Shown here in pieces: positions 1,590 through 57,606 of a stretch of 64,000 nucleotides of DNA (position 1 is the stretch's first letter; each line of letters opens with the position of its first letter). The notes below the pieces were generated by a model. It was given only the letters and a program-made list of their open reading frames with translations. It made no database searches and was not told the origin of the DNA. Source of the DNA: a virus. The stretch spans positions 37,616 to 101,615 of the IMG/VR virus record IMGVR_UViG_3300005825_000044, one strand, 5' to 3'. The translations under genes and the position numbers were made by a program.

Positions 1590-2057
1590 TCAGGAGTTGC
1601 GCGGCAGCCCGAAGAAGTCGTACCGCAGCACCAGCGTCTCGATCACGTTCGCGTCCGCGGTGTTGTCCCAGTCGCCCGCGGAGAACCGCTTCGGCCACGC
1701 GTTGAACAGGCGCCAGACCTTGACCACGGCGCCGGTGCGGTCGCGCTGCTGAACGTCGACCATCCGCTTGAAGACCGGCACGGCGGCACCGGTACCCTTC
1801 GCCGCGTTCGTGGTCTCGTTGAACCAGTCGAACATGTCGCGGTCACTCGTCGCGCCGCGCATCAGCGTGACGTCCGGGATCGTGAGGCGGCCGGGCTGCT
1901 TGTCCGGGATGATGACGCCGCCCTCCCACTGGTCGATGTCGGCGTGCTCCCCGGCGATCTCCGAGCAGCTCTGGAATGCGGCAGCGCCGAAGCCGTCGAT
2001 GCTGACGGTGAACTTGAACTTCGGCTGGTAGACGCGCGGTGTTCCGATGACGGTCAT
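1590..2057 (-). CDS. tail tube protein (T4 gp19-like)
   Basis: The 155-residue product has the size and layout of gp19-family tube proteins: a conserved beta-rich start (KFKFTVSIDGFGAAAFQSCS), a middle RLTIPDVTLMRGATSDRDMF, then FNETTNAAKG and a C-terminal NAWPKRFSAGDWD. The protein polymerises into the inner tube that is driven into the cell when the sheath contracts. It lies directly downstream of the sheath gene, the usual order in contractile phages, and a hairpin follows it. Assignment is confident from pattern and context. Confidence 0.9.
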   Translation of the reverse strand: MTVIGTPRVYQPKFKFTVSIDGFGAAAFQSCSEIAGEHADIDQWEGGVIIPDKQPGRLTIPDVTLMRGATSDRDMFDWFNETTNAAKGTGAAVPVFKRMVDVQQRDRTGAVVKVWRLFNAWPKRFSAGDWDNTADANVIETLVLRYDFFGLPRNS

Positions 2058-2070
2058 CTAACGGCTCTCC

Positions 2071-4338
2071 TCATCCGTTCACGGCCGCGCTGATCTCAGC
2101 GTCGAGCGCTCGGGTGTCTTGGGTGAAGTCCAGGATCACGTACTCCGCGGGCTTCTGCGTGGCGAGCCCGATGCGCTGCCGGACCCGTCCAGCGAACTGC
2201 TCGCTCGGCGGATTGATGGCGGTGCCGGTGTCCACGTAGAACGCGGTGTCGGGGTCCTGCGTGCGGAACGCCTTCAGGCGCATCTGCATCAGCAGGAACG
2301 CGTTGGAGGTGCGGTCCATCTCGTCACGCAGCTCCTCGTCGTTGTTCCGGAACTTCGCGAACGCCATGCCCTTCTTGAGCGTCTGCTCGATGTACGTCGC
2401 ACCGAGCCGCTCCGCGATCGTCGGGAAGTTGCCGGTGCTGCTCAGCGTGCGGACGCCGTCCAGCGTGTAGGGCGAGGTGTCGGAGTCCCGCGAGATCGGG
2501 TTGATCCGCTTCGGGTACAGGACGTCGCGGCGACCCTCGTCGAGGACCTCGTCGGTCTCCAGCCCCGTGATGTACAGCGTACCCTTCGCGAGCCCGGCCG
2601 GGGGGTCGTAGACACCGCCGGCGCGCTGGCCAGCGGTGCGCGCGTAGACGCCAGCGACGAGCCCGCTGAACGGGACGACGATGCTGGCGTCCGACCCGTA
2701 CACCGACGCCCTCGGGTTGCTGACCTTCACGCGCGGCCAGTAGCAGGCACCGTGCTCCGTCAGCTCGAGCAGCGCAGCGGTCGTCCCGTAGTACGTCACG
2801 GCCTGGGCCGCGGTGAGTCCGGCTGGGCAGTCCGCGACGAAGAAGAACGCGCCGCCGCGCGTGGTCTCCGCGTAGGACGCCATGGCGACTCCCACTGCGG
2901 GGGTCGGTCGGTCCGGCACGGAGAGGATCCCGGAGTCGACGGGGATGTCGAAGCTGTGCAGCCCGTTCTTCGCCGCGTCCGAACCGACGAAGTCCGCGTC
3001 GGCGATCGCGCTGAGACCGTCGTCACCGCCTGCCAGGGGCCCGAACGGCACAGGGGTAGAGCCGGGGCTGTTCGCGGGGCGCTCCGCGCTCGGGGTCGAC
3101 GGGTTCACGTCGAGGTCGGTAACCGCGATGAACGCAGAGGGGTCCGTCGGGTCGTTGATCACGGTCTCCACGAAGCGCGCCGCGGTGTCGTCCATCGAGA
3201 GGTTGGCGTGCCGCTCCACGACGACGCCGTCCTGGAGCACAGCGAGGTTGAACTCGGCAGCGACGCCGCTCGTCGCGTCCTCGATCAGGATCGTGAGCCC
3301 GTTGCCGTACGCGCCGTAGTACCGTGCGTCGACCTTGAGAGTGTTCGCCGCAGCCCCGCTCGAGCCGGAATGCGTCGCGTTGTCGATCCCAAGCTCGTCG
3401 TCGAGCGTCGAGGTCGCCTCCACCTGGACGCTCGAGGTCGGCCCCGTGGTGTCCGAGGTGAACGTCGGGATACCGGCTGCGTCGGTCACGGTCACGCCCG
3501 CGACGTCGGCCTCCACGACCGTCTTGATCTCAGCGACCGTGACCTGGGTGATGTCCACGACGTCGCCGGTGCCGTCGACCTGTACGGTCGAGAACCCCAG
3601 CGCGCCGTTCGCGGTGCCGCCGTTGACCTTCACGCTCGAGCCGGTGCCCTTCGTGTCCGAAGTGATGCGGGGGTCGCCGGAGTTGAGGTCGGCGAGCGCG
3701 CCGCTGATCTTCGCGTTGATCACGGCAGCGACCTCGGCACCCGTCGCCGCACCGATGCTCACGAACTCGCCGGTCAGGAAGGTGATCGTCTGCTCCGACC
3801 CGCCGTCGATCTCGACCAGCAGGGTCTGGCCGTTCGACAGCGCGTACGTCGGCGAGCTGCCGGCAGTGAGCGCGGCGGCCGTGGCGTCGAACGTCGCAGT
3901 GTCGGTGCCGCCGCCGTCGATCGAGAAGTCCAGCGTGCCGCCGGGCGAGAACTCGAACGGGGCCGCGTTCGTGCCGGCAGCGACGCCGGCCGATGCAGCG
4001 GCCGCGGCCGTCGCGAGGTTCAGCGTGGCCTTCACGGCAGCGACGGCCGCCGGGTTGTCGACGTCCGTGTAGTGGACGACGCGCGTGAAGTAGCACTTCG
4101 CTCCCTCGCCGGCGTGCTGGAAGAAGCCGCGCACCGAGTTGGAGCCGTAGCCCGCCGCGATGTCCCTGCCGAAGATCCGGACGTAGTCGTCGTAACCCGT
4201 CAGCAGGGTGGCGACGCCGACCGGGCCCTTCTCGGAGATGCCGAGGCAGCACCACGTCGACACGTCGACCCCCTGAGGGATCCTCGTCTTCGGGGGAGAC
4301 TCCTCGACGCTGACCTTCGCGGATAGCTGTTGTGCCAT
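2071..4338 (-). CDS. contractile tail sheath protein
   Basis: The 755-residue protein has a sheath N-terminus (ISEKGPVGVATLLTGYDDYV) and a sheath C-terminal domain (KKGMAFAKFRNNDEELRDEM, NPPSEQFAGRVRQRIGLATQ, ending VILDFTQDTRALDAEISAAV). The middle, roughly residues 110-400, is a low-complexity Gly/Ser/Thr/Ala-rich insertion that looks like surface beta domains and makes the protein longer than many sheaths. Subunits wrap the tube and contract on infection. This gene is the main evidence that the phage is a myovirus. The tube gene follows 13 bases later. Confidence 0.92.
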   Translation of the reverse strand: MAQQLSAKVSVEESPPKTRIPQGVDVSTWCCLGISEKGPVGVATLLTGYDDYVRIFGRDIAAGYGSNSVRGFFQHAGEGAKCYFTRVVHYTDVDNPAAVAAVKATLNLATAAAAASAGVAAGTNAAPFEFSPGGTLDFSIDGGGTDTATFDATAAALTAGSSPTYALSNGQTLLVEIDGGSEQTITFLTGEFVSIGAATGAEVAAVINAKISGALADLNSGDPRITSDTKGTGSSVKVNGGTANGALGFSTVQVDGTGDVVDITQVTVAEIKTVVEADVAGVTVTDAAGIPTFTSDTTGPTSSVQVEATSTLDDELGIDNATHSGSSGAAANTLKVDARYYGAYGNGLTILIEDATSGVAAEFNLAVLQDGVVVERHANLSMDDTAARFVETVINDPTDPSAFIAVTDLDVNPSTPSAERPANSPGSTPVPFGPLAGGDDGLSAIADADFVGSDAAKNGLHSFDIPVDSGILSVPDRPTPAVGVAMASYAETTRGGAFFFVADCPAGLTAAQAVTYYGTTAALLELTEHGACYWPRVKVSNPRASVYGSDASIVVPFSGLVAGVYARTAGQRAGGVYDPPAGLAKGTLYITGLETDEVLDEGRRDVLYPKRINPISRDSDTSPYTLDGVRTLSSTGNFPTIAERLGATYIEQTLKKGMAFAKFRNNDEELRDEMDRTSNAFLLMQMRLKAFRTQDPDTAFYVDTGTAINPPSEQFAGRVRQRIGLATQKPAEYVILDFTQDTRALDAEISAAVNG

Positions 4339-13879: not shown

Positions 13880-14941
13880 CTAAACCAAAAAAATGTCTGA
13901 GCGGCATAACCCGTGAAGGGGAGGCTCCGGCGGTGCCGCGTTCACAAGCTCGTCGCCGCGCAGCGTGGTCCCGTACGAGCCGCGGTCGTCGCGACTTCCG
14001 AAGCCGGAGCGCGTGACCTCCGCGATCGTGGTGCGCTCCCCGTTGCGCTCCGTGAACAGGATCCGGCCGCCGCTCTCGTCCCGTCCCTGGCGCACCCAGG
14101 GTGACGCGTTGCGGACCTCCTCCGGGTTGTCCAGCGACATCACGGACTCCATCTGCTCGACGCTCCGCGACGTCTGGAAGACCTGCCCGTCGTAGAACCT
14201 GCAGGTGTCGGTCGTCCGCTCGTCGAGCACGGCGCTGAACTGCCAGCGCTCCACGCCGGCGTCGGCGAGGCACATCACCTCGGAGTACGTCCGGGCCCGG
14301 TTCGTGTAGGCCGCCGCGACGACCTCGTAGTAGTGGTCGCTGCGCCGGATCTTCGACGCCAGCGCGTCGCCGAGCTGGCGGGCGACCTGCCTGCGGTCGA
14401 GCCCCTCGGAGAGCCCACGCGCGACGACCTCCCTGGCGACCGTCGACGCGGCGCCGGCGCGCCTGCCGAACTCGTCGCGGACGAAGTTCACGTTCATCGT
14501 CCGGATCAGCTTCTCCGCGGTGAGGTCGCGCTGCGCGAGGCTGCCCTCGATGCGGAGCGAGTGCCGCCGCTTGAACGACAGCCGGGTGTCCCCGACCAGC
14601 TGGGCGCCGGTGACCTCGAGCGCCTCGTCGATCTTCGGCAGCGCGCCGGCGAGAGCCTCTGACGCGCCGCGGTTCACGGCAGCCAGTGCCGCCTCGAACT
14701 GGCGGGGGTTCAGCAGCTCCCAGTCGACGTCGGCCGCCGCCATCGCGCTCTCCAGCGCGCCGGCCTCGAACGGGTCGGCCGCGGCACGCATCCGCCGAGC
14801 GATGCGTGCCACGATCAGATCGAAGCCCCGTCTGCTCAGCGGGTCGACGGCCTTCGCGATGTCGGCGAAGAACGCGCGCGCCGCAAGCTCCTCGACTGCG
14901 GCCGCGGCGTCCTCGAACGTGCTCGCAGCAGCGAGCGTCAC
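13880..14941 (-). CDS. MuF-like minor head protein
   Basis: The 353-residue protein has a helical N-terminal part and a C-terminal domain with the Mu F / SPP1 gp7 pattern: WQFSAVLDERTTDTCRFYDG, a Gly/Arg-rich middle and PPLHGLCRSDIF at the end. These proteins attach to the portal inside the head. GTG at 14941 overlaps the end of the portal gene, and the AGGAG within palindrome copy 3 lies 12 bases upstream and may serve as its ribosome site. The final residues (SDIFLV) depart from the usual ending next to the HNH gene, so the extreme C-terminus may have been altered by the insertion. Confidence 0.8.
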   Translation of the reverse strand: MTLAAASTFEDAAAAVEELAARAFFADIAKAVDPLSRRGFDLIVARIARRMRAAADPFEAGALESAMAAADVDWELLNPRQFEAALAAVNRGASEALAGALPKIDEALEVTGAQLVGDTRLSFKRRHSLRIEGSLAQRDLTAEKLIRTMNVNFVRDEFGRRAGAASTVAREVVARGLSEGLDRRQVARQLGDALASKIRRSDHYYEVVAAAYTNRARTYSEVMCLADAGVERWQFSAVLDERTTDTCRFYDGQVFQTSRSVEQMESVMSLDNPEEVRNASPWVRQGRDESGGRILFTERNGERTTIAEVTRSGFGSRDDRGSYGTTLRGDELVNAAPPEPPLHGLCRSDIFLV

Positions 14942-16857
14942 TCCGGTGTGTCTCCTCGAGGAGACACCGGCGCCGACACCGACACGATCTTCCCGAGCTG
15001 CTCATCGGAGAGCGCGATCCTGACGACCTCAGGCTCACCCTTCCGGACTTCCGCGTCGCGCGCCGCGTCGAGGTCGGCCGCTGCCTCCTCCTCCTCCGCC
15101 TTCCGGAACGCGTCGCGCAGCCTGATCAGGCGCCGGGCCCTGTGGTTCATCGCGCGGCGCCAAGCCTTGCTGACTCCGCCGTCGCCCACCTCGGGCTCCG
15201 GGATCTCGCCGTCGAGCCCGTCGTCGATCCCGAACCCCGCGATCGTGAGCGCCAGCGGTTGGTCGGCCCAGTCCGCGTCGATGTTTCCGAGCGGCACGTT
15301 GAAGACGTGGTCAGCGGCGAGCCTGCGGGCGTCACGCGGCGTCAGCGCGCCGCTGACGGTCTGCTCCGCGATCATCTTGGACATCACAGCGGGGTTGCGC
15401 TGCTGGATGCCGTTGCTAGTGAACTTCCAGTACCGGAAGCCGAGCCCGCGGAGCATGTCCCGCACGAGGTTGTCGAAGTCGACGCGCTCCGGCCCGAAGA
15501 CCTGCTCCTCGCAGAAGTCGAGCGCGGCCTCGGACGTCGCCCGGTTGAAGTCGCGGATGTCGCCGCGGACGATGCGGGGGAGCCTGAAGCTCATCCCGAC
15601 CTTGTCCATGTTGCGCTCGTCGTAGTTCTGGAACAGCGCGTCCTTGAGGTGCGCGTCGGTGAGCGACTTCACCTCGATGCGGACCCGCCCGTTGTCGGGT
15701 TGCATCTGCGCGGCGCTCGACGACTCAGCCTCGAGCACGAGGATCTTGTGGAAGTTCTTCTTGCCCTTGATCTCCTTCTCGATGTGGCCGCGGATCGCCT
15801 CGACCCCTCCGCTCACGAGCTTGCCACCGCTGACCGTGATCACGAGGGGCGGGATCGACTTGTTCTCGAAGTACGAGTAGTTGATCTCCTCCGCGAGTCG
15901 GGAGCCCAGCACGCTGAGCAGGTTGCCGATCCAGCGCGGCACCCCGTACGGGGTCCGTCGCGTCGCTGTGATCTTGAAGTGGATGACCTCGTTCGCGGTC
16001 TTCACGTCGGGGCTCTCAGAGACCGCGAGATCCCTCTCGTTCTTGTACCACTTGCCGGTGGCAGCGCTCATCACGCGGGGGTCGCCGAACTGCTTGAAGT
16101 ACGTGACGCCACCACCACCGTCGCTCTGCACGAAGCGGCGGAACTTGCGGTTCAGCTTCTCCTTGCCGAGCGTGTAGGGGCCGTCGAAGACCTCGACCTC
16201 CATCTCGACCGGTTCCTTGATCATGCCGAGCAGCGAGACCGACCAGCTCGGCATGTGAGCGAACTGCGTGACCTTTCCCTTCTTGTTGCGGATCACCTCC
16301 CAGTAGCCGTTGCCGGTGATCTCGATGTCGGCACGCGTCACGCGACGCAGCGCGACGAAGCTCGAGCCGGGGCAGCAGACGTTGAAGAACGCGTTGATCC
16401 TGACCTTCTCCGCGGCCGCGGCGACGCGCAGCTTTCCGAGACGGGCCTCGACCTCGGCGTCTGAGAACTCGGGCACGTCAGACGAACCGCGGACAGCGGC
16501 CTCGACCTCCATCATCGTGCGGATCTGGTCGACCGCGTCCTCCGCCTCGAAGTCCACGACCGGCTCGAGGTGGTGGCCGAACCCGTCGATGTTCGTGACG
16601 TAGGCGTCGACGCACTGCCTCAGGCTGTCGCTGTTCTCGTGCAGCGTCGTCAGCGTCTCCGGCGAGTACGGTGGCCGGATCGCCTCGGCGACCAGGCCCA
16701 CGTCTGCGCCGCGCTGCTCCCAGAGCCCGGAACCCTCTGCGACGCCGGAGAGCTGCTCGTCGACTGCCTTGAAGACCCTGGCGCGGTCGCCGTCGTCGCC
16801 GCCGAGCGTGCGCACGACCACCGTGGTCGTGCCTTCCCTATCGTTGCCGTCGGCCAT
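14938..16857 (-). CDS. portal protein
   Basis: The 639-residue product shows the portal pattern: a clip and wing region with LRQCVDAYVTNIDGFGHHLE, DIEITGNGYWEVIRNKKGKV, FKITATRRTPYGVPRWIGNL, ENKSIPPLVITVSGGKL, then a helical C-terminus (RDMLRGLGFRYWKF and ALTPRDARRLAADHV). The PYGVPRW motif is typical of PBSX-type portals. The dodecameric portal is the DNA gate of the head and the terminase docking site. The last residues (VSPRGDTPE) come from palindrome copy 3. Confidence 0.88.
   Translation of the reverse strand: MADGNDREGTTTVVVRTLGGDDGDRARVFKAVDEQLSGVAEGSGLWEQRGADVGLVAEAIRPPYSPETLTTLHENSDSLRQCVDAYVTNIDGFGHHLEPVVDFEAEDAVDQIRTMMEVEAAVRGSSDVPEFSDAEVEARLGKLRVAAAAEKVRINAFFNVCCPGSSFVALRRVTRADIEITGNGYWEVIRNKKGKVTQFAHMPSWSVSLLGMIKEPVEMEVEVFDGPYTLGKEKLNRKFRRFVQSDGGGGVTYFKQFGDPRVMSAATGKWYKNERDLAVSESPDVKTANEVIHFKITATRRTPYGVPRWIGNLLSVLGSRLAEEINYSYFENKSIPPLVITVSGGKLVSGGVEAIRGHIEKEIKGKKNFHKILVLEAESSSAAQMQPDNGRVRIEVKSLTDAHLKDALFQNYDERNMDKVGMSFRLPRIVRGDIRDFNRATSEAALDFCEEQVFGPERVDFDNLVRDMLRGLGFRYWKFTSNGIQQRNPAVMSKMIAEQTVSGALTPRDARRLAADHVFNVPLGNIDADWADQPLALTIAGFGIDDGLDGEIPEPEVGDGGVSKAWRRAMNHRARRLIRLRDAFRKAEEEEAAADLDAARDAEVRKGEPEVVRIALSDEQLGKIVSVSAPVSPRGDTPE
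14948..14967. repeat. dispersed palindrome copy 3
   Basis: A perfect GTGTCTCCTCGAGGAGACAC lies at the 3' end of the portal gene (read VSPRGDT) and directly before the GTG start of the MuF-like gene. Its right half supplies an AGGAG that could act as a ribosome site and would be closed off if the hairpin forms. Confidence 0.9.
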
Positions 16858-41533: not shown

Positions 41534-41976
41534 GAGCACGCCTCGACCGCGAACCGCAGCGCGGCGCGCGCCATGCCCTCAGCGCCCGGTTCGTTCCAGG
41601 CGCGGTTCAGACCGCTGGGGTGCGGCAGCGACACGAGCACGCGCTCGCCGGCAGCGACCGAGCAGAACGGGGCGACCGCGTCGACGCGCGCTGCCCCGCA
41701 CACCGCGACGGTGACCTTCCGACCGAGCATCACGAGCACGCCGCTCGGCCGCTCCTCGAGGATGGCGCGCGCGTTCCTACGCGCGGCCGCCGCGGACCAC
41801 CGCTCGCCGACGACGAGGTTCATCCGGTCGAAGCGCTCCAGGTACTCGTCCTCGGTCATCCCGAGTCTCATCATCAGTCGGTGGCCGCTGGCGCGCTTCG
41901 GCCACGGCAGCAGCGCGTCGTCCTGGTAGTAGCTGTACGGGTTGTGCTCCCCGATCAGGAGCGGCAGCGCCGTCAC
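41530..41976 (-). CDS. uracil-DNA glycosylase-like phage protein
   Basis: The 148-residue product has a pattern known from a conserved phage family of UDG-like proteins: LIGEHNPYSYYQDDALLPWP, LMMRLGMTEDEYLERFDRMN, GVLVMLGRKVTVAVCG and VSLPHPSGLNRAWN. The HPSGLNR end corresponds to the catalytic loop of UDG superfamily enzymes. It may act in base excision or only bind DNA. Confidence 0.7.
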   Translation of the reverse strand: MTALPLLIGEHNPYSYYQDDALLPWPKRASGHRLMMRLGMTEDEYLERFDRMNLVVGERWSAAAARRNARAILEERPSGVLVMLGRKVTVAVCGAARVDAVAPFCSVAAGERVLVSLPHPSGLNRAWNEPGAEGMARAALRFAVEACS

Positions 41977-43742
41977 ACGCGCACCGGAAGGGCATCAGAG
42001 AACAGCTCCGGTGACGCCCGAAGCTCCGCACCGACGCTCTCCACAAGCTCGAGCGCGCGGAGCTTCCCGAGGTTGTTGGAGAACGTGCTGCTCCGCACGC
42101 TGACGCCAGCGGCTTTCCCGATCGTCTCGCGAGTGAGCGCGCCGGGGTACGCGTCGCAGAGCACGCGCAGCACGCGCCCGCCCGCCGAGTCACCGAACCG
42201 CGAGAGCCAGTATTCTCGCAGGCCGCTGCCCGTCGGCAGCGCCTCGTACTCACCGAGCGCTGCCTCGCCGGCCGCCGTGATCGAGATCCCCCTGCTGCCG
42301 ACCTCCACCCAGCCGTTCGCGCGAGCGCGCCCGAGGTTGTTCGAGAACGTGCTGCTCCGCACGCTGACGCCCGACCTCACGCCGATCTGCGTCCGCGTCA
42401 GCGGGGAGCGCTGGGCAAGCGCTGTCATGACGCGGCGGAGCGCGCCTCCGCCGACCATGAACGGAGTCACCGTAAGTGACACAGGACTCATGCGCGGCTC
42501 GACGTCGCGGCGCGCTACAGGGCCGACGCCGCCGACGGTCCTGTGCAGCAGTCCGGGTACCTCAGCGACCGGGACGGTGCCACCTCGCTTGAGCAGGCGG
42601 AGATCGCCGAGCATGCTTGCGAGCTTGTCACGCTCGCCCACCAGGTCAGCCTGAAGACAGGCGACGCCGGCGTGCGCGGTCTCGATCCTCCTGACCAGCT
42701 TCTCGATGCGACCCGCTACTGCCGCGAGGGCCTTCACGTCGACCACGGGCTCCGCGGGGTCCGGCACCCTCTTCTCGAGCACGGTGACCTTCTTCCGCAG
42801 CCTCGCGACCTCTGCGCGGAGCACTGCCGGGTCATCGTCCTCGGCGCGCTTCACCGCGGCAGCCATCTCCTCGCGGAGCTTCGCGACGTCGATCTCAGAC
42901 AGCGCGGCCTCCTGGTAGGCGCGCTCTCCGACGACGGGGGTCCTGGAGGTGTCCCGCGAGCGGATCGGCAGCACGCGTACCTGGCGCGAGACGTCGAGCC
43001 AGCTCGGGCTCCAGACGTAGGGGTTGCCGACCTCGAGCCGCGGTAGGACGTCGGAGAGCTTCTCGTCGGCGCCCTTCGTGGAGAGCCAGTACTGGAGCGC
43101 CTTGCGCTCGTGCGGGCCGGTGAGCTGGAACGCGAAGACGCACTCGCACTGGTTCAGCGCCTTCTTGTTGACCTCCTGCGGCCGCTGGCTGACGAAGCTG
43201 ACGCCGATGCCGAGCGCGCGGCCCTGCTTCGCGACGCGGTGCCACTCGTGCAGCAGCTTCTCCTCGCCGCGCTGCGGCTCCTGCGGCACGACGTCCTGGG
43301 CCTCGTCGAGCACGATGTGGACAGCTGACCGCGACCGCCGCTTCCGCTCGAAGAACCGTCGGCCGAACGCGGTCAGGAACCGGGTCCGCTCCGCGTCGGT
43401 CATCAGGCTGACGTCGAGCACTGCGGAGACCCCGCGCTCCACAGCGAGCGACGCCACGAACTCGCCGGCGTCGGGCTCGAGCGGGAGGTCACCGTAGAGA
43501 CCGCCGAGCACGTAGACCGGGAACGGCTTCTCGCCGAGCCGGAGCCCAGCCCAGACGCCCATCGTGTCGACCACCACTACCTGGACGCCGGCGTCGAGCA
43601 TCTGCTCGACGAAGCGCTTGGCGCCGTACGTCTTGCCTGACCCGGTGCGACCGAACCACGCAATCTTCTGCGTCGCGGCGTTCGGCGGCAGCGTGAGGTC
43701 GTCTGCGACCGCGTAGCCCCGAAGCGTCGTCTTCCTCGCCAT
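41973..43742 (-). CDS. HerA/FtsK-like ATPase with tandem winged-helix repeats
   Basis: ATG at 43742 has a GGGAGG site. The 589-residue protein has Walker A GRTGSGKT at 31-38 and Walker B HIVLDEAQD at 142-150, with an FGRTGSGKTYGAKRFVEQML context as in the HerA/DUF87 group. A central coiled coil follows (EVARLRKKVTVLEKRV). The C-terminus holds two similar winged-helix units, each with GVSVRSSTFSNNLG. It could be a DNA-pumping ATPase used in replication, repair or packaging. The nearby nuclease-like gene could be a partner. Confidence 0.75.
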   Translation of the reverse strand: MARKTTLRGYAVADDLTLPPNAATQKIAWFGRTGSGKTYGAKRFVEQMLDAGVQVVVVDTMGVWAGLRLGEKPFPVYVLGGLYGDLPLEPDAGEFVASLAVERGVSAVLDVSLMTDAERTRFLTAFGRRFFERKRRSRSAVHIVLDEAQDVVPQEPQRGEEKLLHEWHRVAKQGRALGIGVSFVSQRPQEVNKKALNQCECVFAFQLTGPHERKALQYWLSTKGADEKLSDVLPRLEVGNPYVWSPSWLDVSRQVRVLPIRSRDTSRTPVVGERAYQEAALSEIDVAKLREEMAAAVKRAEDDDPAVLRAEVARLRKKVTVLEKRVPDPAEPVVDVKALAAVAGRIEKLVRRIETAHAGVACLQADLVGERDKLASMLGDLRLLKRGGTVPVAEVPGLLHRTVGGVGPVARRDVEPRMSPVSLTVTPFMVGGGALRRVMTALAQRSPLTRTQIGVRSGVSVRSSTFSNNLGRARANGWVEVGSRGISITAAGEAALGEYEALPTGSGLREYWLSRFGDSAGGRVLRVLCDAYPGALTRETIGKAAGVSVRSSTFSNNLGKLRALELVESVGAELRASPELFSDALPVRV

Positions 43743-43859
43743 ACAGGCCTCCCGAAAAGAAACAGGCCCGCGCCCACCCGTTAGGTAGGGGGCACCGCGC
43801 ACCGACCGTAGTGCCGGGCTCGGGCCCCGCGCGCGCCGCGGACGCGGGCCTACCCGAAC
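43743..43859 (-). other. GC-rich gap with long-range inverted repeat
   Basis: On the minus strand GGCCCGCG and CGCGGGCC lie about 80 bases apart, and the second is followed by TGTTTCTTTTC. This might form a terminator-like structure before the ATPase gene. I see no gene in it. Confidence 0.35.
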
Positions 43860-49413: not shown

Positions 49414-50808
49414 TCACGCAACCCTTACCCGGGAGACGCGCTGCGCGGCACCGAGTAGCACGGAGCGGGCCCACTCCGAAGTCGTGGTACCGGCCCGGTC
49501 AGCGGCCCAGTCCAGCTCCGCGCGCTCTGTAGCGGAGAACCGGGCCGCGAGCCTGGAGCCCTCCGGAGGGCCCCCTGGCAGCTCTACGCGCTCCCCCGGT
49601 GCGGGGCGGGTACCGTCAGGCGGCACCTCGGGCGCCGGCCTCTGCGTGTCTCCTCGAGGGGACACGGTCTGGTAGCGGTGACGGGCACAGGCCCGGCAGC
49701 CACCGGAGGGGAACCTCGAGCCGGGTTCACCGAGATCGTGCCCACGCCCGCACCGCGTCCTCCTGTTGGTGAGTCCCGCATCGACCGAGACCGCGCGCTC
49801 CGGCGACCAGCCGAGCTTGTCGACCCTGCCGACGATCGCCGAGTAGCTGATACCGGTGACGTCCGACCACTCCGTGATCGTGCGGCTGACACCGTCGACC
49901 ACTAGGACGCGGGCGTCCGGTCGCTTCTTCGGGGCCTCCTTCTTCGGCTTCGCTGGCGCCGGGATCGCGACGGGTGTCGACGGCGCGGTACCCAGGGCGC
50001 GATGCAGCTCCGCGTCGTCGCGGACCGCCGCGCTGAACAGCTTCCGGACGCGGGTCTCGAGCTGCCGGATCCTCTCGCGCGTCACGCGCCATCGCGCGCC
50101 GACCTCGCGGAGTGCCACGCGGTCTCGCGGGTCGCACCAGACCCTGCGTTCGAAGACGTCGCGCTGCCGCGCGTCGAGCGTGGCGCGGAACCGGTCCACT
50201 GCGGCACTCACCGCCGCGAGGTCGTCGTCGCTGCCGACCCGCTCGTCCTGCAGCTCGCCGGGGTCCGCGACGAAGTCGAGGAAGCACGAGCTGTCGGGGT
50301 CGTCCCCGACGCGTTCGTCCAGCGACAGCGTCGGGCCGCGGCGCAGCGCGGCGAGCACGCGGCGCACAGTCTCCGGCTTGGACCTGTATCTCTCAGCGAC
50401 GACGGCGAGCGCGGCGTCGTGGCCGAGACCCTCGGCGAGCGCGGCGTCGTAGTCGACCAGGTACTTCTTGCGGTTCAGGTCGGCGCGGTTCACCTCTGCG
50501 GCGTCCTGCGCCGCGCGCCTGACGTGGTTCTTGATCCACCACGTCGCGTACGACAGGAAAAGGACGCCCTGGTCGGGATCGAACAGCTCGATCGCCCGCA
50601 GCACCCCGAAGACGCCCTCGCTGACGAGGTCGTCAAGCTCGAGCCTGCCCCGCGCGAGCGGGAGTGCCCGGGACGCGTGGTAGGCGACGGCGCGCATCGT
50701 CGTGGTCACGAGCATGTCGCGCGCCGCGGCGTCACCTGCCCTGGCCCTCACCGCCAGCTCGATCTGCTCCTTCGCTGGGAGCGGCCTCTTGAAGAGCGCG
50801 GCGTCCAT
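49414..50808 (-). CDS. sigma70-family RNA polymerase sigma factor with extended C-terminus
   Basis: ATG at 50808. Residues 57-98 match sigma region 2 (LELDDLVSEGVFGVLRAIEL, FDPDQGVLFLSYATWWIKNH), and residues 210-258 match region 4 (VALREVGARWRVTRERIRQL, ETRVRKLF). About 200 further residues follow: a segment like nuclease-associated DNA-binding modules (RTITEWSDVTGISYSAIVGR, GWSPERAV), a Cys/His cluster (RCGRGHDLGE, GGCRACARHRY), residues encoded by palindrome copy 8, and a last helical part. It may direct RNA polymerase to phage promoters. Which ones is unknown. Confidence 0.8.
   Translation of the reverse strand: MDAALFKRPLPAKEQIELAVRARAGDAAARDMLVTTTMRAVAYHASRALPLARGRLELDDLVSEGVFGVLRAIELFDPDQGVLFLSYATWWIKNHVRRAAQDAAEVNRADLNRKKYLVDYDAALAEGLGHDAALAVVAERYRSKPETVRRVLAALRRGPTLSLDERVGDDPDSSCFLDFVADPGELQDERVGSDDDLAAVSAAVDRFRATLDARQRDVFERRVWCDPRDRVALREVGARWRVTRERIRQLETRVRKLFSAAVRDDAELHRALGTAPSTPVAIPAPAKPKKEAPKKRPDARVLVVDGVSRTITEWSDVTGISYSAIVGRVDKLGWSPERAVSVDAGLTNRRTRCGRGHDLGEPGSRFPSGGCRACARHRYQTVSPRGDTQRPAPEVPPDGTRPAPGERVELPGGPPEGSRLAARFSATERAELDWAADRAGTTTSEWARSVLLGAAQRVSRVRVA
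49646..49665. repeat. dispersed palindrome copy 8, inside the sigma factor gene
   Basis: The sequence is GTGTCTCCTCGAGGGGACAC, one change from perfect. It is read VSPRGDT in frame at about residue 382 of the sigma factor, between two predicted domains. Confidence 0.88.
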
Positions 50809-50821
50809 GGCAACCAGAAGT

Positions 50822-51280
50822 CTACCCGTGTCTCCTCGAGGAGACACGTCGCCGAAGAGACTTGTAGTCGCGCTCCCAAACAGAGAAGTCGACATCGAGC
50901 CCGAGTGCCGCGAACGCCCGCGTCACGGTACGCAGCGAAGGGTTGCACCGGGGATCCTCGAGCTTCGCTACGCGCTGTTGCGTGAGCCCCGCTAGCTTGG
51001 CGAGACCTACCTGCGTGTGGCCGTACCTACAACGAGCCCGACGAATCAGCACCGCGATAGCTATGCGGGGGTCAACGAAGATGCGACGCCCCCTACGATC
51101 GCGCGGTTCGGGAGGCAGATTCCCGTGTGCCATGTGAGCGCAGAGCCACCCCTCTAACGCCTCTGTCGCGGCCGCCCACAATTCGTCGCGACTGGCTGCG
51201 TAGGTCTGACACCCCGGCGCGTCGGGGAACTCTGCTAGCCAGTGACTACCCTCTCGGCGAAAGCGGACCGCGTAGTGCAT
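50822..51280 (-). CDS. HicB-like protein with XRE helix-turn-helix
   Basis: The first 50 residues have the HicB antitoxin fold pattern (MHYAVRFRREGSHWLAEFPD, APGCQTYAASRDELWAAATE). Residues 80-135 hold an XRE helix-turn-helix (HTQVGLAKLAGLTQQRVAKL). HicB proteins usually neutralise a HicA toxin and repress their own operon. No HicA-like gene is next to it, so it may act as a repressor. Palindrome copies 9 and 10 lie at its 3' end and 39 bases before its start. Its last residues (RVSSRRHG) come from copy 9. Confidence 0.75.
   Translation of the reverse strand: MHYAVRFRREGSHWLAEFPDAPGCQTYAASRDELWAAATEALEGWLCAHMAHGNLPPEPRDRRGRRIFVDPRIAIAVLIRRARCRYGHTQVGLAKLAGLTQQRVAKLEDPRCNPSLRTVTRAFAALGLDVDFSVWERDYKSLRRRVSSRRHG
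50827..50848. repeat. dispersed palindrome copy 9, at the 3' end of the hicB-like gene
   Basis: A perfect core at 50828-50847 with C/G flanks lies in the last codons of the hicB-like gene and 20 bases before the sigma factor ATG. Confidence 0.92.
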
Positions 51281-54060: not shown

Positions 54061-56652
54061 CTAGCCGATCGTGGACACCGAGACGCCGCCGCCCGTGGCG
54101 ATGCCGTGCACCCGAGCGTGGAGTCGCCGAGCGACCTCGCGGGCTATCCAGCTCGCCATCAGCACGTCGCCGCTGTGCTGGTCCGGCATGTAGTCGATGC
54201 CCTCGGCCTCCCAGAGCCGCAGCGCCTCGTAGGCCTCCTCGAGCGCGGGGTCCGCGGTCGGTGCCGCGGGGATGACCCAGCGCCCGGTCTCTAGCTCGGC
54301 CGCGAGCGTGGCGAGCCCGAAGCGGGGATCCGTCTTGTTCTTGCCGGTGTTGAACGGGACGATCGGTGCCAGCGTGAGGCTGTTCTCCGACGCGAGGTCG
54401 ACGAGGTGCTGCTGGATACCGTTGCTCTCGACCGCGATGATCCCACCGAAGCACGCCGCCGCAGTCATGATGCGGAAGATCAGGTCAGGTCCGCGCCAGT
54501 TGCCGGCGCTGACGTGCAGCGGCTGCCGCTTACCGCTGGGGTGCACCAGCAGCACGAAGATCGCCGACTTGCCGTTCGTGCGGCGCTTGCCGCCGAGGTC
54601 GACGCCGGTGACCACGACGCAGCCCTCCGGGATCTCGTCGAGCCTCTTGATCAGCGCGACGTCGTGGCGACGACACGCGTCGTACCACTGCGGCTGGAAG
54701 GTGCGGTTCGCCTGGTCAGTCGCCACCAGTTCGAAGAACCGGAGGAACTCCTCCACCGTCATCTCAGCGCGAGCCGTCGCGAGCCGTGCCTCGTTCCACT
54801 GCTTGGTGTGGATGCTGCCGTCCGGGTCTCGGATCGGGCGGTTCAGCTCGTGCCAGCCCCGCTTCACCAGCTCGACGTCGAGCGCTCGGGGGTGCCACGG
54901 GTTCGTCGCGAACACCTTGACCGCGCCGTCGGTCATGCGGCGCAGCGGGGTCTGCCGGAACCAGCTCGAGGCTGCGCTGCGCTGCACCTCGGTCTGCGTG
55001 TTCTCGAAGTCCAGGAAGTCGTCCGCGAATAGACCGTCGCAGCGGGAGCCCTGCACCGCGCCGTGGTAGCCGACGGCCTGCAGCGAGGGGTCTCTGCTGT
55101 AGACGGTGCGGCGCACCGTGATCCGGTTCTCCTGCCACACCGGGCCCGGCACGAGGTCGGGGAACACCTCATGCAGTGCGGCGCTCTCCTCGACGTACTT
55201 CTTGACGACGCGGACCGTCTTCTTCGCGCCCTCCATCTCGTTGCCGAGCGCGACGAAGCGCTTCCACGGCGCGTTGCCGAGGTCGAACAGGATGCGGCCC
55301 ACGATCTGCGTGCTGTTGTGCGTGACGGTGTACGCCCTACCGGCGAGGTAAGTGTGGTCGGGCGAGTCGACGGTTATGCACTTCGCGGGGCACGACGGAA
55401 TCTCATCGATGCCGACCACCGACTTGAACCTGTGACGACCGCCGACGCGGGACGCGTCACCGAGTCTCTGCCGCTCGAGCTTGCGGGGAAGCTTGAACAC
55501 AGGGACCCGCGCGGTGAACGTGACCCTCCACCGCCGGCCCACAACCCGACCGTCGATCACAGCATCAGACTCCTTCATGCTCGCCTTGAGACCGAGCCCG
55601 CGTGCGAGTTGAAGGAAGTCCCGTGCCAGCCGCGGCGAGCAGGAGCAGTACTCGACACGCGAGCTACCTCCCGACGGTCCGTTGCTGACCGAGCCGTCTG
55701 TATCAAGCAACCCGGCGAGAAGCTCGAACCGGTCACTAACCGACGCGTGCAGATACTCAGGAGGGATGTGCTTCTCGTTCGGCCACAGCACCTCCAGCTC
55801 GCGCAGTACAGCCCTCACCTCGCCCCAGCTCGCGCCGAGGGTCCCGTTCATAATACCGGGCCTCCACGAGTAAGACCGAGCCTCCCTACCCCCAACGAAC
55901 TGCACGCAGCGGTCCCAGATGAAGCGGTCCTTCTCGTGAAACGTAATCCTCGAGTCCCTGCTGTTACCGTCACCGAGCCAAACGCCCAGCACGTACGGCG
56001 GCAGCACAAGAGCGGGGCCGGCGTCCATGACGGGGCCGCACACCGGTACGTGCCACTTCCACTTCAGGTCAGAGGTGCGAAGACCGCGCCGCAGCATCTC
56101 GTCGGTGCTCACGACTCGCTCCGAGCCGCCGCAGTACGTGGCGGTCCAGAGGTGGTCTCCATCCGCGTCAAGCCATGACCCGTCGTCGAACCGGACCCTG
56201 AACATCCTGCCCATCTCGATACGGCTCACCGCCGTGACGCTGCACGGAGCCCCGTCACGCCCGAACACGACGTCGCCGACGCGCACAGCTCCCATGCGCT
56301 TCCACCCACCGACGACTGGAATCTCGGTATCGACGGAGAGCCGCTTGCCGCTCTCCGGGTGGCTCCTGACGACGACGCCGCGGGCGCCGTGCCGGTCCAC
56401 AGCGTGCTGCAGCCGCACGTGGAACGGCTCCTGCCGGACGGGGTCGCCCTTCTCGTCACGGATCACGTGCTCCACGAACGCGTTGACGTCGGTGCGGCAG
56501 TACTGGAAGTACAGCGCTCGTGCCCGCTCCCCGGCGCTCCGGATGCCAGCGGCCTCGAGGTCGACGCCCTCAGCGTCGGGGGCAGCTACCTCGGCAGTCG
56601 CGGCGGCCCGGTCCGGAGCGTGTCCCCTCAAGGAGACACGCTTACGAGCCAT
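54061..56652 (-). CDS. terL: terminase large subunit, interrupted by an intein
   Basis: The 863-residue precursor is a large terminase (ATPase and nuclease that packages DNA). The Walker A motif SHPESGK-STQIVG is split between Lys 103 and Ser 447. Walker B is LFADDF at 541-546, motif III VFATNPWH at 580-587. Nuclease acidic residues are in GVDLGG (Asp 685), AVESNG (Glu 742) and GDVLMA (Asp 829). Removing residues 104-446 leaves a 520-residue enzyme. Without splicing the P-loop is broken, so packaging depends on intein removal. Palindrome copy 11 encodes residues 5-11. Confidence 0.9.
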   Translation of the reverse strand: MARKRVSLRGHAPDRAAATAEVAAPDAEGVDLEAAGIRSAGERARALYFQYCRTDVNAFVEHVIRDEKGDPVRQEPFHVRLQHAVDRHGARGVVVRSHPESGKRLSVDTEIPVVGGWKRMGAVRVGDVVFGRDGAPCSVTAVSRIEMGRMFRVRFDDGSWLDADGDHLWTATYCGGSERVVSTDEMLRRGLRTSDLKWKWHVPVCGPVMDAGPALVLPPYVLGVWLGDGNSRDSRITFHEKDRFIWDRCVQFVGGREARSYSWRPGIMNGTLGASWGEVRAVLRELEVLWPNEKHIPPEYLHASVSDRFELLAGLLDTDGSVSNGPSGGSSRVEYCSCSPRLARDFLQLARGLGLKASMKESDAVIDGRVVGRRWRVTFTARVPVFKLPRKLERQRLGDASRVGGRHRFKSVVGIDEIPSCPAKCITVDSPDHTYLAGRAYTVTHNSTQIVGRILFDLGNAPWKRFVALGNEMEGAKKTVRVVKKYVEESAALHEVFPDLVPGPVWQENRITVRRTVYSRDPSLQAVGYHGAVQGSRCDGLFADDFLDFENTQTEVQRSAASSWFRQTPLRRMTDGAVKVFATNPWHPRALDVELVKRGWHELNRPIRDPDGSIHTKQWNEARLATARAEMTVEEFLRFFELVATDQANRTFQPQWYDACRRHDVALIKRLDEIPEGCVVVTGVDLGGKRRTNGKSAIFVLLVHPSGKRQPLHVSAGNWRGPDLIFRIMTAAACFGGIIAVESNGIQQHLVDLASENSLTLAPIVPFNTGKNKTDPRFGLATLAAELETGRWVIPAAPTADPALEEAYEALRLWEAEGIDYMPDQHSGDVLMASWIAREVARRLHARVHGIATGGGVSVSTIG
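55315..56343 (-). mobile_element. class 3-type intein with LAGLIDADG endonuclease, in the terminase P-loop
   Basis: Residues 104-446 of the terminase form a 343-residue intein. Position 1 is Arg (RLSVDTEIPV), not Cys, Ser or Ala. The class 3 triad is present: Trp 169 in GDHLW (block B), Cys 425 in AKCITVD (block F) and Thr 444 in YTVTHN (block G). His 445 and Asn 446 end it, and Ser 447 follows. Two LAGLIDADG motifs lie at 222-229 (LGVWLGDG) and about 311-320 (LLAGLLDTDG). This should splice by attack from Cys 425 and home into terminase genes without an intein. Confidence 0.87.
56620..56639. repeat. dispersed palindrome copy 11, diverged, in the start of terL
   Basis: The sequence is GTGTCCCCTCAAGGAGACAC, with two changes that break symmetry at two positions. 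In the minus-strand RNA one pair becomes a G-U wobble. It is read RVSLRGH near the terminase N-terminus. Confidence 0.8.
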
Positions 56653-57478
56653 CGCCGTCGCCCTGGTCTACCTCCACAACGTCGACGAGCAGCGCGGCCC
56701 GAGCACGGGCCCGCTTCACCATCTCGGCGGCCTCCTCGATCCAGATCATCGACCGCTCGGTGGAGAGCTGCTCGCCGTCGTCGGCACCCTCCGGAGGCGC
56801 GATCGGGGCGCCCATGATGACGCGCTCGGTGTGCACGGAGAGCTTGCTGGCCTCGTTGCTGAACCTCGTCACTGTGGCGATCTGCCGGAGCAGCGCGATG
56901 CTCTCCTTCACGCTCACGCTTGGGTCGTCGGCCCGCAGCTCGAGCTGCCGCCGTACCCGCTCGCTGAGCTTCATCGCGCCCTGGAGCATGCTCGCCGTGG
57001 CGAGACCCAGCGCGAGCGCGTTGCGACGCGCGGCCTGGGCGACGCGGCCCTCCTCGGCCATCGTCTCTGCGCGGTCGCGCTCCAGCGCGAGCCTCCGCTT
57101 CTCCCGGTCCATCAGCACCGCGATGTGCTTCACCTGGGCGGGGTCGTCGGGGCTCGGGCCCATCGCCCGGAGCGCGCGGGCCTCGCGCCGCAGCTCGAGC
57201 ACGGTCTCCTTGATCGGCGGCCGCGTGCCGTCGCCGAGGTGCCAGTACTTGTGCGACGTCACCGGGGAGGCTCCGAGTGCCTTCGCGACGACCTGCGGCT
57301 GCCCGGGCCGCTGCGCGAACGCCTCGACCCAGACCGACCACTCGTCGTCGGTCAGAGCGTTCGGCCGCGGCCTGCCGAGCTTCTTGCCCTTCCGGTTCCC
57401 TGCCCTCTTCGAGACGCGCTGCTGACCGCCATCCGCTGCCACGCGGAGCACCGTACCACGGTGCCGCGCCGGATTCAT
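56642..57478 (-). CDS. putative terminase small subunit
   Basis: The 278-residue product has an N-terminal helix-turn-helix-like part (RPNALTDDEWSVWVEAFAQR, VAKALGASPVTSHKYWHLGD), a long coiled-coil middle (VLELRREARALRAMGPSPDD, REKRRLALERDRAETMAEEG) and a helical C-terminus. A DNA-binding head plus a long helix directly before the large subunit is the usual small-subunit arrangement. It overlaps terL by eleven bases. The start could be ATG 57478 or a later GTG. Small subunits vary greatly, so this rests on context. Confidence 0.65.
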   Translation of the reverse strand: MNPARHRGTVLRVAADGGQQRVSKRAGNRKGKKLGRPRPNALTDDEWSVWVEAFAQRPGQPQVVAKALGASPVTSHKYWHLGDGTRPPIKETVLELRREARALRAMGPSPDDPAQVKHIAVLMDREKRRLALERDRAETMAEEGRVAQAARRNALALGLATASMLQGAMKLSERVRRQLELRADDPSVSVKESIALLRQIATVTRFSNEASKLSVHTERVIMGAPIAPPEGADDGEQLSTERSMIWIEEAAEMVKRARARAALLVDVVEVDQGDGDGS

Positions 57479-57606
57479 TTCGCACCGTGCTGGACCGCCA
57501 GCCCGCGCGGCCGGCACGCCCCGCGAGGACCGTCATCCACGCCGGGCGAAGGGGCCCTACTACCGACCGCGCGAGCACACGGTTAGTCGGGGAGTGTAGG
57601 GGAACC

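Follow-up and report, generated by a model that had tools for sequence, protein, structure and literature searches.

The window analysed here, 64,000 nucleotides of a 101,615-base virus record (IMGVR_UViG_3300005825_000044), carries a terminase gene whose ATP-binding loop is split by a long insert, which raises the question of what the insert is, how it might leave the protein and how it came to occupy this site. An original prediction had described it as a class 3-type intein with an intact-looking LAGLIDADG pair and, since such inteins are known from mycobacteriophages and actinobacteria, had taken it as a possible sign of gene flow.

The terminase gene and its insert

The interrupted gene, terL, occupies 54,061–56,652 on the minus strand, and recomputing its translation gave an open reading frame without internal stops encoding a precursor of 863 aa, or 520 aa after splicing. 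The extein matched the terminase large subunit family phrog_38 (2e−33) and, under that model's cut-off, NF033889 (1.3e−11), while the spliced 520-aa sequence had contiguous homologues in viral contigs, 80 of which were aligned, mostly over residues about 40–500. Judged by this family match, the product is a phage large terminase (TerL) with a predicted P-loop ATPase plus nuclease domain. Its N-extein (56,344–56,652, minus strand; residues 1–103) ends in HPESGK, the first half of Walker A, and its C-extein (54,061–55,314, minus strand, stop codon included) begins with the Ser (+1) and Thr of the same motif and contains a Walker B-like segment (GLFADDFLDFEN). The division agrees with intein-free relatives, among them L021 (45% identity), which has an uninterrupted HPESGKST loop.

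Between the exteins lie the 343 residues of the insert (R104–N446; 55,315–56,343, minus strand), and all elements of the predicted boundaries proved exact when recomputed. The junctions in the precursor read VVVRSHPESGK / RLSVDTEIPVVGGWKRMG...KCITVDSPDHTYLAGRAYTVTHN / STQIVGRI, so that the insert enters terL exactly between the codons for the Lys and the Ser of Walker A, and the flanks HPESGK and STQIV place the insert between GK and ST of the P-loop, as originally proposed. A search for other inteins in the same record returned only a sub-threshold match (G000:C1:17034-17189, E 0.011).

Upstream of terL, and overlapping its start by 11 bases, an open reading frame of 291 aa (56,642–57,517, minus strand) is a candidate small terminase by its position and an apparent helix-turn-helix; it had no match in Pfam or PHROG. 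Elsewhere in the window, a tail sheath (2,071–4,338, minus strand; phrog_17610, 1.1e−46) and a portal (14,938–16,857, minus strand; phrog_12, 3.7e−31), both identified by family match, mark the phage as contractile-tailed. A 609-aa HerA/AAA_10-like ATPase (41,973–43,802, minus strand) also matches phrog_2666, labelled terminase large subunit (2.6e−24), and gives this phage a second gene with a packaging-like ATPase label; it was not found in eight viral records with related terminases. A 493-aa phage sigma factor (49,414–50,895, minus strand; phrog_351, 5.7e−43) has a C-terminal part with weak matches of NikA-like and HNH-like type.

Class 3 signature, endonuclease and predicted fold

The defining residues of class 3 inteins are Trp B:12, Cys F:4 and Thr G:5; position 1 need not be a nucleophile, and the +1 residue is usually Ser or Thr (PMC5222942, PMC3196547). 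Their block B carries DxxH (PMC6195587). The insert begins with Arg (Arg104 of the precursor) rather than Cys, Ser or Thr, and the Trp169, Cys425 and Thr444 of the original prediction were found in place as intein residues W66, C322 and T341. The same held for His445, Asn446 and Ser447, which are the penultimate His (H342), the terminal Asn (N343) and the +1 residue. Block B (H-L-W within DGDHLW; 56,146–56,154, minus strand) contains, besides W66, His B:10 (H64) as part of a DxxH (D61-G-D-H64) that the prediction had left unmentioned. C322 (55,378–55,380, minus strand), the predicted first nucleophile, shares its column with the Cys in block F of Msm DnaBi1 (6bs8), and the block G Thr-His-Asn (T341-H342-N343) closes the intein at 55,315–55,323 (minus strand). 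H64, W66, C322 and T341 were each invariant in 60 aligned inteins.

Comparison by phmmer with solved class 3 DnaB inteins gave E values of 5.5e−17 for 6bs8 and 3e−16 for 6rix, and in the alignments with 6bs8, 6rix and 6riy the Trp, the Cys and the Thr-His-Asn fell in matching columns. The generic intein model TIGR01445 did not detect the TerL intein, nor is any of the 10 class 3 inteins of our alignment A1 listed for that model. On this sequence evidence the insert is an intein, far beyond chance agreement.

The predicted LAGLIDADG pair was also confirmed, with both motif aspartates intact. The first motif (LGVWLGDG, Asp125; 55,966–55,989, minus strand) has Asp in 58 of the 60 aligned inteins and Ala or Asn in the other 2, and the second (LAGLLDTDG, Asp216; 55,693–55,719, minus strand), matched by LAGLIDADG_3 (PF14528) at 2.2e−7, over the model's cut-off, has Asp in all 60. 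An AlphaFold2 model of the intein, built on the alignment of 60 inteins (pLDDT 92.1, pTM 0.91), showed a HINT fold of the class 3 kind together with a LAGLIDADG endonuclease fold. In Foldseek searches with this predicted structure, the best whole-length match was PI-SceI (TMq 0.74), and the class 3 DnaB inteins 6bs8 and 6rix (TMt about 0.8) were among the best matches to the splicing domain. Class 1 outgroups, a small set of 5–6 sequences, were split from class 3 by a branch with support 98 in an earlier tree and 100 in a later one; signature, fold and phylogeny thus bear out the class 3 assignment.

Relatives and distribution of the insert

A tblastn search with the intein matched 730 phage records, and confirmed relatives numbered at least 584 in viral contigs and at least 548 in bacterial genomes. 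Among 176 readable related inteins, the Cys F:4, Thr, His and Asn were present in every one, the W-C-T triplet together in 172 and the GK/S-T insertion site in 145, while position 1 was other than Cys, Ser or Thr in 173 of 175 (the remaining two having one Cys and one Ser); as these sets were picked by similarity to the window intein, such proportions describe its relatives and not inteins overall. Arg at position 1 occurred in 4 of the 176, namely L002, L080 and the seemingly similar pair L026 and L027. In cultured phages, a WCT intein lies between GK and T/S of the terminase loop in Rhodobacter RcDurkin, Acidovorax ACF1, Vibrio 489E54-1, Mycobacterium Mindy, Gordonia Ali17 and Escherichia MIZ5. 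The Arg-1 and the P-loop site of the TerL intein are therefore not special, both being known from published or public examples, and the intein belongs to a kind already known, with hundreds of related inserts in public sequences.

Two observations on these relatives stand apart. The inteins of two viral contigs (L049, L050), Vibrio phage 12VC501 (L014) and Lactococcus phage 949 (L017) have Ser, Asn or Ile instead of Trp at B:12 and keep Cys F:4 and Thr G:5, possibly as variants of the class 3 signature or through misaligned columns. In the helicase gene of Serratia phage vB_SmaM_ 2050HW (L020), at about 2001–3039, the intein match falls in two pieces on two annotated ORFs; the boundary (2486/2491) may reflect a frameshift, a sequencing error or a split intein.

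Exact peptide patterns, whether taken from the full precursor or only from the intein, found no close relatives, a limit of patterns drawn from a single sequence; the spliced terminase and the alignments recovered them. No near-identical DNA was found among 50,697 phages. Among 81 TerL relatives, the intein was present in four (L208, L258, L260 and L261) and the site was empty in 77, including L205, L207 and L021; the 77 leave out L208, which aligns straight across the loop only because its intein end, THNT, fills the P-loop columns. The inteins of L208, L258 and L260 are 50–56% identical to that of the window, whereas the C-exteins of the same-site carriers are 39–43% identical; for L208 the intein (56%) exceeds the extein (43–47%). 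In the intein tree these three and the window formed one clade with support 100, in which the window paired with L208 (support 95). In an early tree lacking these allelic inteins, the window intein had joined L028 and L068, though weakly (support 29 for L028); that tree was superseded once they were added. The four carriers of the clade, the window terminase among them, stood apart in the TerL tree, where well-supported branches forced at least 4 state changes and empty alleles were neighbours of L208 (L207), L258 (L213/L214) and the window (L205). L207 and L208 are 86% identical in spliced TerL, the first empty and the second with the intein. This distribution is best explained by a single intein lineage that moves within one family of terminases and always occupies the same site, and its patchiness could reflect losses as well as gains.

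The phylogeny also bears on the suggested gene flow. In the comparison with known class 3 and terminase inteins that the original prediction had proposed, the window intein fell inside class 3, and it grouped not with mycobacteriophage or DnaB inteins but with the same-site TerL inteins of uncultivated phages. Nor are class 3 inteins a mark of mycobacteriophages and actinobacteria: they occur in phages of Rhodobacter, Acidovorax, Vibrio, E. coli, Klebsiella and Bacteroides and in many bacterial phyla. A recent origin of the window intein from a class 3 intein of mycobacteriophages or actinobacteria has, in our estimate, next to no chance of being right. Mycobacteriophage inteins do align over its whole length at 33–36% identity, but much closer inteins share both its site and its terminase family and form a fully supported clade with it, and inteins equally distant from the window are also found in phages of many Gram-negative hosts. 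The gene-flow hint was accordingly dropped.

Proposed activity, alternatives and known systems

What was computed here is the anatomy and signature of the TerL intein, its predicted fold, the alleles with an empty site, the clade it belongs to and its patchy distribution; splicing, the order of its steps and DNA cleavage are inferred. Cys F:4 (C322), aided by His B:10, Trp B:12 and Thr G:5, would attack the Lys103–Arg104 bond, the acyl group would pass to Ser+1, and cyclisation of Asn343 would release the intein. The exteins would be joined as HPESGKST, rebuilding the P-loop, and the terminase would gain ATPase activity only once spliced. That unspliced TerL is inactive, as originally proposed for this protein, is a sound deduction, since Walker A Lys and Ser stand 343 residues apart and ATP hydrolysis and motor assembly are unlikely before splicing; PMC5050341 makes the same argument for TerL. 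The endonuclease would cut intein-free terL alleles of the family, and copying of the insert into them would spread it among related phages. PMC5050341 also shows that five tested TerL inteins of mycobacteriophages splice readily and that two cleave intein-free alleles, and its TerL inteins include class 3 members; carrying such activity over to the window intein is an extrapolation, because its nearest relative is only 56% identical. Sequence and model together make it very probable that the TerL insert is a class 3 intein in working order, equipped with a homing endonuclease, and a mobile element of this kind, which would restore a working P-loop by splicing out and would spread by homing, is in our judgement the best explanation by far, held with high confidence.

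The closest competitor, which we regard as unlikely though worth keeping in mind, is that the intein still splices and persists by splicing alone, its endonuclease being dead or dying. The divergence of the intein from its nearest kin (50–56%), the altered first LAGLIDADG motif of 2 of the 60 aligned inteins and the fact that no near-identical intein-bearing phage was found would suit such decay, but the window intein has lost neither catalytic Asp nor any of the endonuclease fold, and its four-member clade is scattered across the TerL tree. Decay extending to splicing itself seems hardly credible: class 3-like inactive inteins exist, such as Arsp-FB24 Arth_1007 (PMC3196547), but that pseudogene lacks Cys F:4 and His B:10, whereas all catalytic positions are intact here, and a dead intein should be lethal because it would sit in the P-loop of the recognisable terL of the phage.

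A different proposal is that splicing is conditional, for example redox-sensitive, so that the intein delays DNA packaging as a checkpoint. The precedent is M. smegmatis DnaB, whose class 3 P-loop intein is inhibited by oxidation through a disulphide between the catalytic Cys118 and Cys48 (PMC6195587), and the window intein would need a catalytic Cys of the same kind. The phmmer alignment, however, puts Met at the position of Cys48, so a switch of the Cys48–Cys118 type is not expected. C318 and C322 were considered as a CxxxC redox pair and rejected: C318, four residues from C322 on one extended stretch of the model, is too far away for a disulphide, and it occurs in only 2 of the 60 aligned inteins. 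The TerL inteins tested in PMC5050341 also splice readily. We consider this checkpoint reading very unlikely, and would give equally slim prospects to a timer or stress checkpoint for genome packaging operated by a trigger other than that disulphide.

As a single case, the class 3 intein in TerL matters little, adding one more member to those at a favourite P-loop site. It also points to a terminase family, found in uncultivated phages, whose members variously carry and lack a single intein lineage at one fixed codon, and the L207/L208 pair offers a convenient natural system for intein homing between phages. In these two, both uncultivated, the 30-base DNA flanks on each side of the site differ at about 6 of 60 positions. 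The Arg-1 of several class 3 inteins may interest intein engineering.

Among known systems, the nearest are L208 (IMGVR_UViG_3300018422_000001), L258 and L260/L261, which share with the window the GK/S-T codon boundary, the TerL family, class 3 and LAGLIDADG; L208, L258 and L260 differ in having Ala instead of Arg at position 1 and lengths of 337–403 aa, and L260 in having Glu for the first LAGLIDADG Asp. The TerL inteins of RcDurkin, Mindy, 489E54-1, MIZ5 and Ali17 have the same WCT, THN and GK/S-T site, and that of RcDurkin also Arg-1, but they are only 31–36% identical to the window intein (BLASTP), and the window terminase did not match the exteins of these five at E 0.01. The mycobacteriophage TerL1-a to -e and RecB inteins, for some of which splicing and endonuclease activity were shown (Kelley et al. 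2016, PMC5050341), resemble it in including class 3 and P-loop TerL inteins; TerL1-a to -e belong to another host group and another terminase family, and the class of TerL1-a is unstated in the available portion of that report. The DnaB-1 class 3 inteins of M. smegmatis (6bs8) and M. chimaera (6rix, 6riy) share WCT, DxxH, the HINT fold and, in M. smegmatis, a P-loop site, but are endonuclease-free mini-inteins, that of M. smegmatis with the redox Cys48. PI-SceI has the same two-domain architecture with a LAGLIDADG endonuclease, but uses class 1 chemistry and is 16% identical.
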